Source of the DNA: Phycisphaerae bacterium
GTDB taxonomy: Bacteria > Planctomycetota > Phycisphaerae > Phycisphaerales > Phycisphaeraceae
Assembly (NCBI GenBank): GCA_030432595.1
Contig: JAUIGU010000001.1
Location: 310,001-374,000, forward strand
Length of the DNA: 64,000 bases
Reading direction: 5' to 3'
A model generated the notes under the pieces. That model ran no database searches, was not told the origin of the DNA, and saw only the letters and a program-made list of their open reading frames with translations. Position 1 is the first letter of the stretch, and each line of letters begins with the position of its first letter. This document shows positions 9,656 to 19,088 of this stretch, in pieces. The position numbers and the translations under genes were made by a program.

Positions 9656-9724
9656 TGTAGGATGAATTACTCACGCCGCGGCTTCTCTCGCGGACCATCC
9701 CCGACCCTTCTTGCCGGCCCGCCC

Positions 9725-11134
9725 ATGCAGATCGACCCCAAAGCCAGCCCCAAGTTCCTCGCCAGTGCCACGAAGCGCGTGTTCGAGCTCGCCGCGCGGA
9801 AGGCGAAGAACATCGACAAGACCTGGGACCCCGCCGACGGCACGCCCGTGTTCACCGTCGAGGGCAAGTACACCACCCGAGGCTGGACCGAGTGGACACA
9901 GGGGTTCCAGTACGGCTGCATGATTCTCGCCGGCGACGGGCTCAAGGACGACAAGCTCATCCAGCTCGGCAAACGCCGCACGATCAAGCACATGCTCCCG
10001 CACGTCACGCACACCGGCGTGCACGACCACGGGTTCAACAACCTCTCGACCTACGGCAACCTGCTCCGCCTGCTCAAAGAAAAGCGGATGAGCTACGACG
10101 GCTGGGAAGAGGTCGCGTACTCAAACGCGATCGCCGCGTCGGGCGCGGTCCAGGCGTCGCGCTGGTCCGGGACCGCGCCCGTGAAGTCGAAGCACACCGC
10201 CAACGCCCCGGCGCTCGGCTACATCTACAGCTTCAACGGCCCGCACTCGCTGTTCATCGACACGATGCGCACCACGCGCATCCTCGGCGTCGCCTGGCAA
10301 CTCGGGCACCCGCTCATGCACGAGGGCGACCGCGCCGCCAACCTGCTCAAACGCTCCGTGCTGCACGGCCTGACCACATCGCACTACATCGTCTTCCACG
10401 GCGACAGCGAACACACCTACGACGTCCGCGGCCGGACCGCCCATGAGGGCACGTTCAACCGCAACGACGGCGCGTTCCGCGCCCGCGCAACCCAACAGGG
10501 CTACTCGCCGTTTTCGACATGGACGCGCGGCTTGGCGTGGGCGATGCTCGGGTACGCCGAGGAACTCGAATTCTTCAAGACCATTTCGGCCGCCGAATTC
10601 AAGAAGGCGGTGGGCATGAACAAGGCCGACGTGGTCAAGGTCTACGAGCGCAACGCCAAGGACACCTGCGATCACTACCTGAACGAAGCGTCCGCGCTCG
10701 ACGGCGTGACGTACTGGGACGACGGTGCCCCCAACCTGCACAAGCTCGGCAACTGGCAGAACGCCCCGGCCGACCCGTACAACGACCACGAACCCGTCGA
10801 TGCCTCGGCCTCCGCGATCGCGGCGCAGGGCTTGATCCGCTTCGGCAACTACCTCGGTAAGACCGGCAAGGGCAAGAAGTACCTCCAGGCCGGGCTCACG
10901 CTGGCGGGCACACTGTTCGACGAGCCCTACCTCTCGACCAAACGCGACCACCAGGGCCTGCTGCTGCACTCGATCTACCACTGGCCCAACGGCTGGGACC
11001 ACGTGCCCAAGGGCAGCAAGGTCGCGCACTCCGAGTCGAGTTTGTGGGGCGACTACCACCTGCTCGAACTCGCGTTGCTCGTCCACCGCATGGCGGGCAA
11101 CGGGCCGTACCCGACGTTCTTCCTGAGCAAGTAA
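9725..11134 (+). CDS. Glycoside hydrolase family 88-like unsaturated uronyl hydrolase
   Basis: 469 residues from the ATG at 9725; an upstream ATG at 9662 would add 21 low-complexity residues and overlap the likely promoter. The alpha6/alpha6-barrel signature is present: H100-D101-HGFNN and F177-I-D179-TM correspond to the two catalytic aspartates of GH88 enzymes, and TWTRGLAWAMLGYAEEL and LWGDYHLLELAL are typical. It removes a 4,5-unsaturated uronic acid from oligosaccharides made by polysaccharide lyases. No signal peptide is seen, so it acts in the cytoplasm. It is the first gene of a run with SDR, eda and kdgK, which handle the released sugar. Confidence 0.8.
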   Translation: MQIDPKASPKFLASATKRVFELAARKAKNIDKTWDPADGTPVFTVEGKYTTRGWTEWTQGFQYGCMILAGDGLKDDKLIQLGKRRTIKHMLPHVTHTGVHDHGFNNLSTYGNLLRLLKEKRMSYDGWEEVAYSNAIAASGAVQASRWSGTAPVKSKHTANAPALGYIYSFNGPHSLFIDTMRTTRILGVAWQLGHPLMHEGDRAANLLKRSVLHGLTTSHYIVFHGDSEHTYDVRGRTAHEGTFNRNDGAFRARATQQGYSPFSTWTRGLAWAMLGYAEELEFFKTISAAEFKKAVGMNKADVVKVYERNAKDTCDHYLNEASALDGVTYWDDGAPNLHKLGNWQNAPADPYNDHEPVDASASAIAAQGLIRFGNYLGKTGKGKKYLQAGLTLAGTLFDEPYLSTKRDHQGLLLHSIYHWPNGWDHVPKGSKVAHSESSLWGDYHLLELALLVHRMAGNGPYPTFFLSK

Positions 11135-11161
11135 CCGAGAGTCTTCCGAGAGAAAGCACGC

Positions 11162-11950
11162 ATGTCTTCGTCCCCCACCGACAAACCCGTCGCGCTCGTG
11201 ACCGGCGGCAGCCGAGGTATCGGCTTCGGCGTCGCGCAGGAACTCGCCAAGTCCGGATTCGACATCACGATCAACGGCCGGCGTCTGCAGGCTGACGTGC
11301 AGGACGCGATCGATGGCCTGACCGCGCTCGGGGCCGAGGTGCTCTACTGCGCGTGCGATATCGCCGACCTCGAAGCGCACGGGCAGATGCTCGGCGCGAT
11401 CCGCAATAAATTCGGCCGGCTCGACGCGCTGGTGAACAACGCGGGCGTCGCGCCCAGCGTCAGGGCGGACATCCTCGACGCCTCGTCCGAGAGCTTCGAT
11501 CGACTGGTCAACATCAACCTGCGCGGCCCCTACTTCCTGACGCAGGCCGCGGCGCGGTGGATGATCGAGCAGAAGAATGCCGACGCGAGCTTCCGGGGGA
11601 CGATCGTGAACGTCTCCTCAATCAGTGCGACCGTGGTGTCGGTCAACCGCGGTGACTACTGCATCAGCAAGGCGGGCGTCGCGATGGCGACGCAGCTCTG
11701 GTCGGCGCGGCTTGGGGCCGAGGGCATCGCGGTCTATGAAGTCCGGCCCGGCGTGATCAAGACCGACATGACCGCGGGCGTCACCGAAAAATATGACAAG
11801 CTCATCGCCGAGGGCTTGACCGTCGAGCCGCGCTGGGGGAGCCCGGAAGACGTCGGCAAGGCCGTGGCGTCACTGACGCGCGGCGACTTCGCGTATGCCA
11901 CCGGCAACGTCGTCATGGTGGACGGCGGGCTGACGTGCCAGCGACTTTGA
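11162..11950 (+). CDS. Short-chain dehydrogenase/reductase, possibly KduD-like
   Basis: 262 residues with the classical SDR layout: T14-GGSRGIG21 cofactor motif, N92-N-A-G, catalytic Ser near 152-153, and Y166-x3-K170 (YCISK). It starts 27 bases after GH88 and lies before the KDPG aldolase. In uronate breakdown KduD reduces 2,5-diketo-3-deoxygluconate to KDG, and this gene is well placed for that step; the sequence alone could equally be a FabG-type reductase. GAGAG lies ten bases before the start. Confidence 0.8.
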   Translation: MSSSPTDKPVALVTGGSRGIGFGVAQELAKSGFDITINGRRLQADVQDAIDGLTALGAEVLYCACDIADLEAHGQMLGAIRNKFGRLDALVNNAGVAPSVRADILDASSESFDRLVNINLRGPYFLTQAAARWMIEQKNADASFRGTIVNVSSISATVVSVNRGDYCISKAGVAMATQLWSARLGAEGIAVYEVRPGVIKTDMTAGVTEKYDKLIAEGLTVEPRWGSPEDVGKAVASLTRGDFAYATGNVVMVDGGLTCQRL

Positions 11951-12002
11951 CTATCCTCGCTTTTCCAGAACGAACGACAAACCCCCACTCGCCCGGCCCA
12001 CC

Positions 12003-12653
12003 ATGAGTCCACCCGCCCCCGCCAAGTCTGACGTACCCGGGTTCATTGCCCACCACCGGATCGTGCCGATTATCACGATGCGCGACGCGGCCCAGGCCGA
12101 CCCGCTGGTCGAGGCGCTGCTGGCCGGCGGGCTGCCGATCGCGGAGGTCACGTTCCGCACCGACGCGGCCGCGGCGAGCATCGAGGCGATGAGCAAGCAC
12201 GACGGGCTGTTGGTCGGCGCGGGCACGGTGCTCAAACCCGACCAGGTCGATGAGGCCCGCGACCGCGGTGCGACGTTCATCGTCACGCCCGGCTTCAGCC
12301 CAAAGGTCGTGACGCGCGCGCTTGAGCTCGATCTGCCCATCTACCCGGGCGTGTCGAACCCCACGGACATCGAGATGGCGCTCGACCACGGGCTGGACTC
12401 GGTGAAGTTCTTCCCGGCCGAGTCGTACGGCGGGCTCAAAACCCTTAAGGCCATCGCCGCGCCGTACCACATGGTCAAGTTCGTGCCCACCGGCGGCATC
12501 AACACCGACAACATCCGCGACTACCTGGCGTTCAAGCCCGTCGTCGCGTGCGGCGGCAGCTGGATGGTCAAGCCCGACCTGTTTGCCGACGGCGACTTCG
12601 GTCCGGTCGAGGCCGCGGTGAAAGCGGCGGTCCGGGCCGTGGCCGAAGTTTGA
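12003..12653 (+). CDS. eda: 2-dehydro-3-deoxy-6-phosphogluconate (KDPG) aldolase
   Basis: 216 residues, typical of class I KDPG aldolases. Active-site residues are visible: E48 (AEVTFRT), R52, the phosphate/loop motif VGAGTVL and the Schiff-base lysine K135 in VKFFPAE, followed by PTGGI. It cleaves KDPG into pyruvate and glyceraldehyde 3-phosphate, the last step of the KDG route. The KDG kinase follows 74 bases later, so the pair converts KDG to central metabolites. Confidence 0.9.
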   Translation: MSPPAPAKSDVPGFIAHHRIVPIITMRDAAQADPLVEALLAGGLPIAEVTFRTDAAAASIEAMSKHDGLLVGAGTVLKPDQVDEARDRGATFIVTPGFSPKVVTRALELDLPIYPGVSNPTDIEMALDHGLDSVKFFPAESYGGLKTLKAIAAPYHMVKFVPTGGINTDNIRDYLAFKPVVACGGSWMVKPDLFADGDFGPVEAAVKAAVRAVAEV

Positions 12654-12727
12654 AGCGGAAGTCGTTGCGTTCGTGTCGCAGCCCGACTTTCTGACCTGTC
12701 ACTTTCAACTTTTCACGCACTCTCCCC

Positions 12728-13828
12728 ATGGCCAAGCTCGACCTCAAGCCCGCGTCCGACTGCCGCTTCGACTGCGTTTCGCTGGGCGAGGTGATGCTGC
12801 GCCTGGACCCCGGCGAGGGCCGCGTGCGCAACGCGCGCTCGTTCCGCGCCTGGGAAGGCGGCGGCGAGTACAACGTCTCGCGCGGGCTGCGGCGCTGCTT
12901 CGGGCTGCGCACGGCGCTGGTCAGCGCGTTCGCGGACAACGAGGTCGGCCGGCTGCTCGAAGACCTGATCCTGCAGGGCGGCGTGGACATGTCGCGGGTG
13001 AAATGGATCCCCTACGACGGCGTCGGCCGGCGGGTGCGCAACGGGCTGAACTTCACCGAGCGCGGCTTCGGCGTCCGTGCGGCGCTGGGCACGTCGGACC
13101 GCGGCCTGAGCGCCGCGTCGCAGATGAAACCCGGTGACGTGGATTGGGATGGCCTCTTCGGTACCGAGGGCGTCCGCTGGTTCCACACCGGCGGGATCTT
13201 CGCGGCGCTGTCTGACACCACGCCCGACTTCATCGAGGACGCGCTGAGCAAAGCGAAAACGCACGGCGTCGTCACGTCTTACGACCTGAACTACCGCCCG
13301 TCCCTCTGGAAAGACATCGGCGGCCACGCGCGGTGCCAGGAAGTGAACCAACGCCTGGCGCAATACATCGACGTGATGATCGGCAACGAGGAAGATTTCA
13401 CCGCTTGCCTCGGGCTCGAGGTCGAGGGTGCCGACGAGAACCTCACCGAGCTTGAAGTCGATGCGTACAAGAAGATGATCGAGCGGGCCTTGAAGACCTA
13501 CCCCAACTTCAAGATGACGGCGACCACGCTGCGCGGCGTCAAGACCGCGACCGTCAACGACTGGAGCGCGCTGTGCTGGTACGACGGCACGTTCCATCAC
13601 GGCCTGGAACTCAACGACCTCGAAATCATGGACCGCGTCGGCGGCGGCGACAGCTTTGCGTCGGGCCTCATCTACGGCATGCTCACCACCGGCGACGCCG
13701 CGAAGGCGGTGAACTACGGCGTCGCCCACGGCGCGCTGGCGATGACCACGCCCGGCGACACGTCGATGGCGTCGCTCAACGAGGTCGAAAAACTCATGGG
13801 CGGCGGCAGCGCCCGCGTCGTGCGGTAA
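12728..13828 (+). CDS. kdgK: PfkB-family sugar kinase, probable 2-dehydro-3-deoxygluconate kinase
   Basis: 366 residues of the ribokinase/PfkB fold, somewhat longer than the usual 310-340. The start has the family segment SLGEVMLRLDPGEGR and GGGEYNV; the anion-hole/catalytic motif is G305-GGD308-SFASG with D308 as base. It would phosphorylate KDG to KDPG for the aldolase just upstream. Substrate choice rests on gene context. It ends 26 bases before the convergent trmD fusion gene, with no clear terminator in between. Confidence 0.85.
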   Translation: MAKLDLKPASDCRFDCVSLGEVMLRLDPGEGRVRNARSFRAWEGGGEYNVSRGLRRCFGLRTALVSAFADNEVGRLLEDLILQGGVDMSRVKWIPYDGVGRRVRNGLNFTERGFGVRAALGTSDRGLSAASQMKPGDVDWDGLFGTEGVRWFHTGGIFAALSDTTPDFIEDALSKAKTHGVVTSYDLNYRPSLWKDIGGHARCQEVNQRLAQYIDVMIGNEEDFTACLGLEVEGADENLTELEVDAYKKMIERALKTYPNFKMTATTLRGVKTATVNDWSALCWYDGTFHHGLELNDLEIMDRVGGGDSFASGLIYGMLTTGDAAKAVNYGVAHGALAMTTPGDTSMASLNEVEKLMGGGSARVVR

Positions 13829-13854: not shown

Positions 13855-15180
13855 TCACCCCTTTTCAAACGCATCGACGTATGCGATCTCACCGCCATCC
13901 ACGGCTTTGCCGGGGCGGAGGTTCAGCATCAGAAAGTTCGGGTACTCGCCCCCAACGCGCCTGAATCCCTCTGCTTCGGCATCGACAAACCCGAACCGGG
14001 TGTAGAAACGGGGGTCGCCCCAGACGAACAGTCGTGCCGCCCCGGCGCGCTTCGCCTCGGCGATGCAGGCGCGCACCAGCGCCGAACCCAGGCCTCGGCC
14101 GTGAAACAGCGGCCGCACGCTCACCGGCCCCAGCGCGAGCAAGCCACGCACGGCCGGCTGGTCCACCAAGGCCGCTTCCGTGACCAGCGCGTGTCCGGCA
14201 ATGCGACCGTCCACCTCGGCGACCATCGAAGCCAGCGGCGCATCCTCCCGGTGGATGCGCCGCACCACGCCCGCCTCGTACTCTCCGCCGAAGGCTTCGC
14301 GGTGAACCGCCGCGGCACCTTCCACGTCACCATCGTCTGCTTCCCGGACGACGACTACGGGCAGTTTCGACGTGTCGGTTCCGCCGGTCAGTAGATCCGG
14401 CCGGCAACGCTCGGTTCGTTCGCGCGACTGCACTTCCCGCCACGCCGCGATCGCGGCGTGGTCGCCGCTGCGCAGCACTGCCGGCACGTCGATCCCGTCC
14501 CAGGTCGCGGGCTGCGTGTAGTGCGGGTGGTCGAGGAGACGCGACACGCCGGGCGAGAACGAGTCGTGCTTTGCAGAATCCGCGTCGCCTAAAGCGCCCG
14601 GCAATAATCGAACGACCGCGTCGAGGATGCTCATCGCCGGCAACTCGCCGCCGGAGAGCACGAAGTCGCCGACGCTGATCTCGTCGAGGCCTGGCTCGCC
14701 ATCGGCGACTCCGTTCGGTGGTTCGTCGCGCAGCCGATCCAGCACGCGCTGGTCGAAGCCCTCGTAGTGCCCGCAGATCAGGAGCAAGCGCCCGCCGCCG
14801 TCGGCGTCGAACAAGCCGGCGAGTTCTTCCGCGACGCGTTGCGTGAACGGCCGGCCGGTTGGCGTGACAAAGACGCGCCTTGTTGTTCGCCGCGACTCGT
14901 GCGCTTCAACATGTTTGACCGCGTCCCACAGCGGCTGGCACTGCATCACCATGCCCGGCCCCCCGCCGAACGGCGGCTTGTCCACTTTCTGATGTCTGGC
15001 GTCCGCCGAGAAGTCTCGCAACTGGTGCAGGTGATACGACGCCACCGGCTCGCGCACACGTCGCGGGTCCTCCGGGGCGGAGGGGTCCGGCACGGGTTCG
15101 GCCGCGCGCTTCAGGATGCTGCCGCCCAGCACCCCCGCGAACATCTCCGGGAACAGCGTGATGATGTCGAAGCGGAGCAT
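13855..15180 (-). CDS. trmD: tRNA (guanine-37-N1)-methyltransferase fused to a GNAT acetyltransferase
   Basis: 441 residues from the ATG at 15180 (MLRFDIITLFPEMF, the canonical TrmD start). Residues 1-265 form TrmD: FGGGPGMVM (71-79), the SPOUT knot parts ICGHYEGFDQRVL (135-147) and SVGDFVLSGGELP (169-181), and LDHPHYTQP (216-224). It makes m1G37 in tRNAs with SAM. Residues 276-441 are a complete GNAT domain, with the acetyl-CoA loop HGRGLGSAL (360-368) and GDPRFYTRFGF near the end. TrmD is normally about 240-260 residues without such a domain, so the fusion is unusual; no frameshift is visible at the joint. It follows rpsP by 67 bases, across a terminator-like hairpin. Confidence 0.92.
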   Translation of the reverse strand: MLRFDIITLFPEMFAGVLGGSILKRAAEPVPDPSAPEDPRRVREPVASYHLHQLRDFSADARHQKVDKPPFGGGPGMVMQCQPLWDAVKHVEAHESRRTTRRVFVTPTGRPFTQRVAEELAGLFDADGGGRLLLICGHYEGFDQRVLDRLRDEPPNGVADGEPGLDEISVGDFVLSGGELPAMSILDAVVRLLPGALGDADSAKHDSFSPGVSRLLDHPHYTQPATWDGIDVPAVLRSGDHAAIAAWREVQSRERTERCRPDLLTGGTDTSKLPVVVVREADDGDVEGAAAVHREAFGGEYEAGVVRRIHREDAPLASMVAEVDGRIAGHALVTEAALVDQPAVRGLLALGPVSVRPLFHGRGLGSALVRACIAEAKRAGAARLFVWGDPRFYTRFGFVDAEAEGFRRVGGEYPNFLMLNLRPGKAVDGGEIAYVDAFEKG

Positions 15181-15190
15181 GACTTCAAAA

Positions 15191-15218
15191 AGATAGCCCC
15201 GCATTCACATGCGGGGCT
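15191..15218 (-). terminator. Terminator-like attenuator between rpsP and trmD
   Basis: On the minus strand AGCCCCGCAT (15218-15209) pairs with ATGCGGGGCT (15204-15195), with a four-base loop, and the next bases are ATCTTTTT. It is placed after the rpsP stop and ten bases before the trmD start. It probably ends most transcripts after rpsP and leaves low read-through into trmD, and may also occlude the trmD ribosome binding site. Confidence 0.7.
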
Positions 15219-15247: not shown

Positions 15248-15529
15248 TCAGGCGGAAGCCGGTGTAGCTTTTCCGGTCTTCTTGTCCACGACGCCGGCCT
15301 TGGCGAGCAGGTCACGGACGGTGTCGGACGGCTGGGCGCCGGTGCCGAGCCAGTAGCGGACGCGGTCTTCCTTGAAGACGAACTGCTGGGCCTCGTCGGC
15401 CAGGGTGGGGTCGTAGTGCCCGAGCTCTTCGATCGCCTCGCCGTTGCGCGGGTTGCGCTTGTCCATGGCGCAGAGGCGGTAGAAGGGCTGGTGGGTGCGG
15501 CCGAAACGCTTGAAACGCAGACGAACCAT
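15248..15529 (-). CDS. rpsP: 30S ribosomal protein S16
   Basis: 93 residues with the conserved S16 pattern: MVRLRFKRFGRTHQPFYR at the start, the central D-K-R-N-P-R-N-G motif, and ELGHYDP. It binds 16S rRNA early in 30S assembly. The start has GGAG eight bases upstream. rpsP precedes trmD as in many bacteria, but rplS, usually the last gene of this operon, is about 3 kb away on the other strand. The last residues (KKTGKATPASA) are a small basic tail. Confidence 0.95.
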   Translation of the reverse strand: MVRLRFKRFGRTHQPFYRLCAMDKRNPRNGEAIEELGHYDPTLADEAQQFVFKEDRVRYWLGTGAQPSDTVRDLLAKAGVVDKKTGKATPASA

Positions 15530-18635: not shown

Positions 18636-19088
18636 ATGAGCGCCGCCCTCATCGCCGCCGTCGAGCAAGACCAGCTCAAGTCCAACCTGCCCGTCCTGCA
18701 CGTGGGCGACACGGTGGACGTCCACGTCCGCATCATCGAAGGCTCCAAGGAACGCATCCAGGTGTTCAACGGCGTCATCATCAAGATGCAGGGCAAGGGC
18801 CTGACCGCCACCGTCACCGTCCGCCGCATCGTCGCCAACGAGGGCGTCGAGCGGACCCTGCCGCTGCACTCGCCCAAGATCGCCAAGATCGAGGTCAAGC
18901 GGCGCGGCGACACCCGCCGGGCCAAGCTGTACTACCTGCGCGACCGCGTCGGCAAGAAGCGCCGCCTCCGCGACAAGCGCCGCGGCCTGGACGCGCTCAC
19001 CAAGCAGGAAGTCGCCGCCACCGAGCAGCAGCAGGCCGCCGAAGCCGCCGCCGCGAGCGCGAGCGAAGAGAAACCTGGCGACGAATAA
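18636..19088 (+). CDS. rplS: 50S ribosomal protein L19
   Basis: 150 residues. The L19 core is clear: [35 protein letters not shown] and the basic [20 protein letters not shown]. The start at 18636 gives the usual short N-terminus. The last 35 residues form an Ala/Glu-rich tail ([20 protein letters not shown]) longer than in most bacteria and probably disordered. It sits at the 30S-50S interface. Unlike in many genomes it is not in one operon with rpsP and trmD. A terminator follows at 19143-19169. Confidence 0.93.

Follow-up and report, generated by a model that had tools for sequence, protein, structure and literature searches.

A TrmD-type tRNA methyltransferase fused to a YhbS-like GNAT domain in a family of Phycisphaerales

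The stretch of DNA analysed here (64,000 nucleotides from a Phycisphaerae bacterium, hereafter the window) carries on its minus strand a gene in which trmD is joined in frame to the coding sequence of a YhbS-like GNAT domain. The fusion is inherited in part of the bacterial family, and the catalytic motifs of both halves are intact in the window. Judging from its sequence, the product is most likely a working m1G37 methyltransferase with an active acetyltransferase tethered to it. Nearly all bacteria have TrmD, an enzyme that is usually essential to them and that serves as a drug target.

The fused gene and its two halves

The features of the locus are as follows.

13855..15180, minus strand: fused trmD-GNAT gene, 441 aa plus stop
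14389..15180, minus strand: TrmD domain, predicted m1G37 tRNA methyltransferase, residues 1-264
14752..14772, minus strand: GHYEGFD, AdoMet trefoil-knot motif, residues 137-143, with little or no variation in alignments
14608..14610, minus strand: R191, alignment counterpart of Arg154, a catalytic residue in characterised TrmD
14563..14565, minus strand: D206, alignment counterpart of Asp169, likewise catalytic in characterised TrmD
14359..14388, minus strand: short interdomain linker, residues 265-274
13858..14358, minus strand: GNAT domain, YhbS-like by Pfam and PDB profile matches, residues 275-441
14086..14103, minus strand: HGRGLG, acetyl-CoA pyrophosphate loop, residues 360-365; five fused relatives have lost it
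14002..14004, minus strand: Y393, predicted general-acid Tyr, present in all 7 intact fused GNATs and in all 18 free ones
15248..15529, minus strand: rpsP (ribosomal protein S16), upstream neighbour of trmD-GNAT
18636..19088, plus strand: rplS (L19), apart from rpsP-trmD and opposite to it in strand

With translation table 11, the open reading frame ends at 13855 and is open from 15204 (449 aa); alignment with homologous relatives supports the ATG at 15180 as the start, giving 441 aa. A sequence-only reading of the window had claimed that a complete TrmD runs without a stop into a complete GNAT domain. This was borne out: one 441-aa frame holds both domains, each scoring above its profile cut-offs, and the TrmD part stops at residue 264 (14389), inside the range of about 14380-14420 in which the junction had been placed. 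GC content by codon position was of coding type in the TrmD half (0.73/0.48/0.84) and, in the same frame, in the GNAT half (0.78/0.49/0.78). The probability that the junction is an artefact of assembly or sequencing is practically negligible: the coding signal is unbroken across both domains, and the same in-frame joint is found in 12 independently assembled genomes. Because these genomes have the fusion in common, a base-calling error at the joint is excluded. An internal start yielding a separate GNAT was also rejected, since no in-frame start with a convincing Shine-Dalgarno sequence was found at the onset of the GNAT domain in any of the 12 fused genes.

The TrmD half matched Pfam tRNA_m1G_MT (E=2.4e-45) and the NCBIfam TrmD equivalogs NF000648 (248.1 bits, cut-off 220) and TIGR00088 (224.7 bits, cut-off 195); its closest solved relatives are TrmD structures in the PDB (E to 3e-49). 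The knot-region motifs GHYEG and GDFVLSGGELP are both present, and R191 and D206 align with Arg154 and Asp169, the catalytic residues of a characterised TrmD (PMC5372744). Compared with TrmD of the SPOUT family (TIGR00088, PF01746), the whole domain, the catalytic residues, the knot motifs and the position after rpsP are alike, whereas the fused protein differs in its added C-terminal GNAT and in longer loops in the SPOUT part. In an AlphaFold model of the full protein, pLDDT was mostly 85-97 in the TrmD part and mostly below 60 in the GNAT part, for which the alignment held one GNAT row only. The genome is 99.1% complete, and the fused gene is the sole trmD found there; if it is the only copy, as the search indicates, and if this organism, as is the rule, cannot do without m1G37, the modification has to come from a functional TrmD half.

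The GNAT half scored 40 bits with Pfam Acetyltransf_1 (PF00583; cut-off 20.7) and 35.1 bits with Acetyltransf_9 (PF13527; cut-off 25), residues 286-406 being covered by Pfam GNAT matches. A profile of seven fused GNATs matched the acyltransferase structures PDB 4rs2 (E=3e-32) and 4zbg (E=3e-30), with which the acetyl-CoA loop, the general-acid Tyr, a YxxxGF motif and the C-terminal strand are shared. A tyrosine serves as general acid in GNATs (PMC6199490). At the first position of the consensus loop Q/R-x-x-G-x-G the window protein has His, and the other intact fused members have Gln or Arg. By these motifs, the GNAT half has the parts expected of a working acetyltransferase. Pfam searches of the fused protein gave no match of the TmcA type (helicase plus GNAT). 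For E. coli YhbS, no substrate was reported in the literature searched, and it was not among the GNATs chosen as lysine acetyltransferases in one screen (PMC6199490).

In six fused relatives (G002, G003, G004, G016, G036 and G037) rplS lies directly 3' of the fused gene, so that the GNAT part occupies the position between trmD and rplS. The rplS genes of the window and of a same-genus relative lie on the opposite strand at a distance of about 3.5 kb; in the window, a gene for an oligopeptide-type ABC ATPase lies between rpsP-trmD and rplS. The rpsP/trmD intergenic region contains a GC-rich hairpin with 10 perfect pairs and a T-run (15195-15218, minus strand), which ends about 15 bases short of the trmD start. 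The same hairpin occurs in the same-genus relative G008, and similar ones precede trmD in G036, G037 and G018; with a hairpin at this position, expression of trmD would depend on read-through or on a separate start beyond the hairpin. On the other side of the fused gene, a plus-strand run of genes (9662-13828) resembles, by eye, a uronate catabolism cluster, with an unsaturated glucuronyl hydrolase-like protein, an SDR reductase, a KDPG aldolase and a KDG kinase.

Distribution and ancestry of TrmD-GNAT fusions

The fusion proved to be shared by part of the family only. Whether orthologues have it had been posed as a check: 12 of the 44 readable genomes carry it, in frame and at the same joint directly after the RRPDLL end of TrmD, and the remaining 32 have plain TrmD. 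The sequence-only reading had further held that two separate genes in related genomes would speak against a fusion. Separate genes do exist, 18 free-standing YhbS-like GNATs having been collected from the family, but they make the fusion a derived state and no artefact. YhbS-like GNATs are free-standing in many Phycisphaerales, and the free homologues in this family sit away from trmD; in the window the domain is joined to TrmD.

In the GNAT tree, one branch (support 82/78) parted the 12 fused GNATs from the 18 free-standing ones. The TrmD tree was poorly resolved and implies several changes of fusion state, and a single fused clade was not rejected in it (AU p=0.18). One ancestral fusion fits best, because the fused GNATs group together against the free-standing ones. 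Outside the family, the stronger matches, which are those listed for 397 genomes of the class and 294 of the phylum, did not reach the GNAT part. A scan with the fused alignment, whose conserved patterns lie in TrmD, returned single-domain TrmDs as its best 80 matches listed, none with a GNAT tail (0/80); beyond Planctomycetota and Actinomycetota, the sample comprised 80 loci and a few genomes. No relative was found in the viral contigs scanned with the GNAT alignment.

A second TrmD-GNAT family came from Actinomycetota. In a 119-genome sample from the phylum of an actinobacterial locus, there was one TrmD (G794) for which the match extended into the GNAT part. The tail of this protein is a GNAT (PF00583, 48 bits) of another subfamily, which the profile of the fused YhbS-like GNATs did not match at E 1e-3. 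Within the family to which G794 belongs, at least 75 of 99 genomes had a full-length match, and the acetyl-CoA loop and Tyr were intact in all 20 members read. The domain order and the joint after RRPDLL are the same as in the window; the GNAT subfamily differs, and the catalytic motifs are kept in every member read. Because the actinobacterial GNAT belongs to an unrelated subfamily, the architecture has at least two separate origins, with the joint in the same place in both.

The statement that TrmD is normally a single domain is mostly true, but TrmD-GNAT is common in one actinobacterial family, and TrmD-Tm1570 of Calditerrivibrio nitroreducens is a published natural fusion in which methylation is carried by the TrmD half (PMC11187310). 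The latter, which PDB 8b1n probably represents, judging by its length of 436 aa, is the nearest described precedent. It too has a second enzyme domain on the C-terminus of TrmD, but the partner is a SPOUT methyltransferase instead of a GNAT, and the C-terminal SPOUT domain that marks it (PF09936) gave no Pfam match in the fused protein. In the literature searched, which covered few subscription papers, a TrmD-GNAT fusion was not found.

Loss of catalytic residues and retention of the domain

Of the 12 fused GNATs, seven (the window's and those of six relatives) retain an intact loop for acetyl-CoA as well as the general-acid Tyr. In the other five (G003, G004, G036, G037 and G042), the catalytic residues typical of YhbS-like GNATs are gone: R362, G363, G365, G388 and Y393 are lost in every copy, whereas R279, A321, L368, G397, A401 and G430 are kept in 5/5. 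Loss amounted to 25/25 cells of the catalytic set against 44/110 cells elsewhere (Fisher p 5e-9, with cells that are not independent, a residue set picked after the alignment was inspected, and degenerate rows whose alignment is uncertain in places). Four of the five dead copies group together in the GNAT tree, and they are split in the TrmD tree. Since all these residues are lost, acetylation by the fused domain would seem to be dispensable in the five lineages.

None of the five copies is shortened by an early stop. For G003/G004, the one pair that could be tested, a codon model gave omega 0.13 for the dead GNAT (dS about 1.45) and 0.065 for TrmD of the same pair, and omega=1 was rejected for the GNAT (2dlnL 61.8); most other pairs have saturated synonymous sites, at which omega is not estimable. 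In the pair from the window's genus, omega of the GNAT was 0.12, but dS was saturated. The dead domain of G003/G004 is thus still constrained, and because it is under purifying selection, a non-catalytic role of the GNAT domain is probable as well. Some lineages can apparently do without catalysis yet keep the domain, which favours an added structural or binding role. The remnant in G042 is short and very divergent and could reflect plain decay. Besides its dead fused GNAT, G036 encodes a YhbS-like GNAT that is free-standing and whose motif is intact (L066, G036:C1:3408698-3410269), as if another gene provided the activity.

Possible functions of the fused protein

The account that we favour, tentatively and at a little under even confidence, combines a single ancestral fusion, a bifunctional protein in the window, an acceptor of its own for the GNAT half, and a structural or binding use of the GNAT fold. 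A single event, in an ancestor of some members of the Phycisphaerales family, would have placed a YhbS-type GNAT gene between trmD and rplS and fused it in frame with the 3' end of trmD. In the window, the TrmD half would form a homodimer and carry out the usual m1G37 methylation, and the GNAT half would act as a tethered acetyl-CoA-dependent acetyltransferase with its own acceptor, a protein or a small molecule. The GNAT fold would also have become a structural or binding part, so that the dead domain was kept where catalysis was lost. We infer that both halves are active and that the acceptor is independent of tRNA. Among the possible roles of the GNAT half, we put an independent acceptor first, a translation-linked one second and acyl-CoA sensing third.

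Acetylation on the path of TrmD, the target being the bound tRNA, an aminoacyl-tRNA, or a ribosomal or translation protein, would allow the fusion to channel or couple modifications; we consider this possible but rather unlikely. The sequence-only reading had named the ribosome and tRNA among the conceivable targets. RNA-acting GNATs do exist (TmcA, Elp3 and the GNAT toxins acting on aminoacyl-tRNA), the architecture has at least two origins that involve different GNAT subfamilies but share the position of the joint, and none of the actinobacterial members read has lost the loop or the Tyr. E. coli YhbS was, moreover, recovered in RNA-dependent Hfq complexes (PMC6773851). Such a role is harder to reconcile with five fused relatives that apparently lost catalysis but kept the domain, and with free YhbS homologues of the same family that lie remote from trmD.

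It is unlikely that the GNAT half is mainly a sensor, which would bind acetyl-CoA or another acyl-CoA and tune the activity or stability of TrmD to the metabolic state. Constraint on a domain without catalytic residues and an intact acetyl-CoA loop in 7/12 copies are consistent with sensing, but the dead copies are without that loop, so that no usual acetyl-CoA sensing is expected there, and the AlphaFold model, with its low pLDDT in the GNAT part, gives no interdomain contact. Quite unlikely, too, is a neutral gene fusion that brought co-expression only, with the GNAT as a passenger decaying in some lineages. Its patchy occurrence (12/44), the wide loss of active-site residues and the faster evolution of the GNAT than of TrmD (51% versus 80% identity in G000/G008) would agree with a passenger, whereas the lack of early stops in the dead copies and the constraint on G003/G004 would not; recurrence of the architecture in Actinomycetota argues against a purely accidental join.

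That the TrmD-GNATs of the two phyla are convergent bifunctional enzymes, in which m1G37 methylation is coupled to a modification in translation that depends on acetyl-CoA (its target being the tRNA, the charged amino acid or a ribosome partner), seems improbable to us; if true, a second modification, so far undescribed, would take place at that step. That TrmD has captured an acetyltransferase domain more than once hints that acetyl-CoA may be linked to tRNA modification or to translation. Within the family, fused GNATs that are apparently active and others that are catalytically dead form a natural series, by which catalytic and structural roles of the domain can be told apart.
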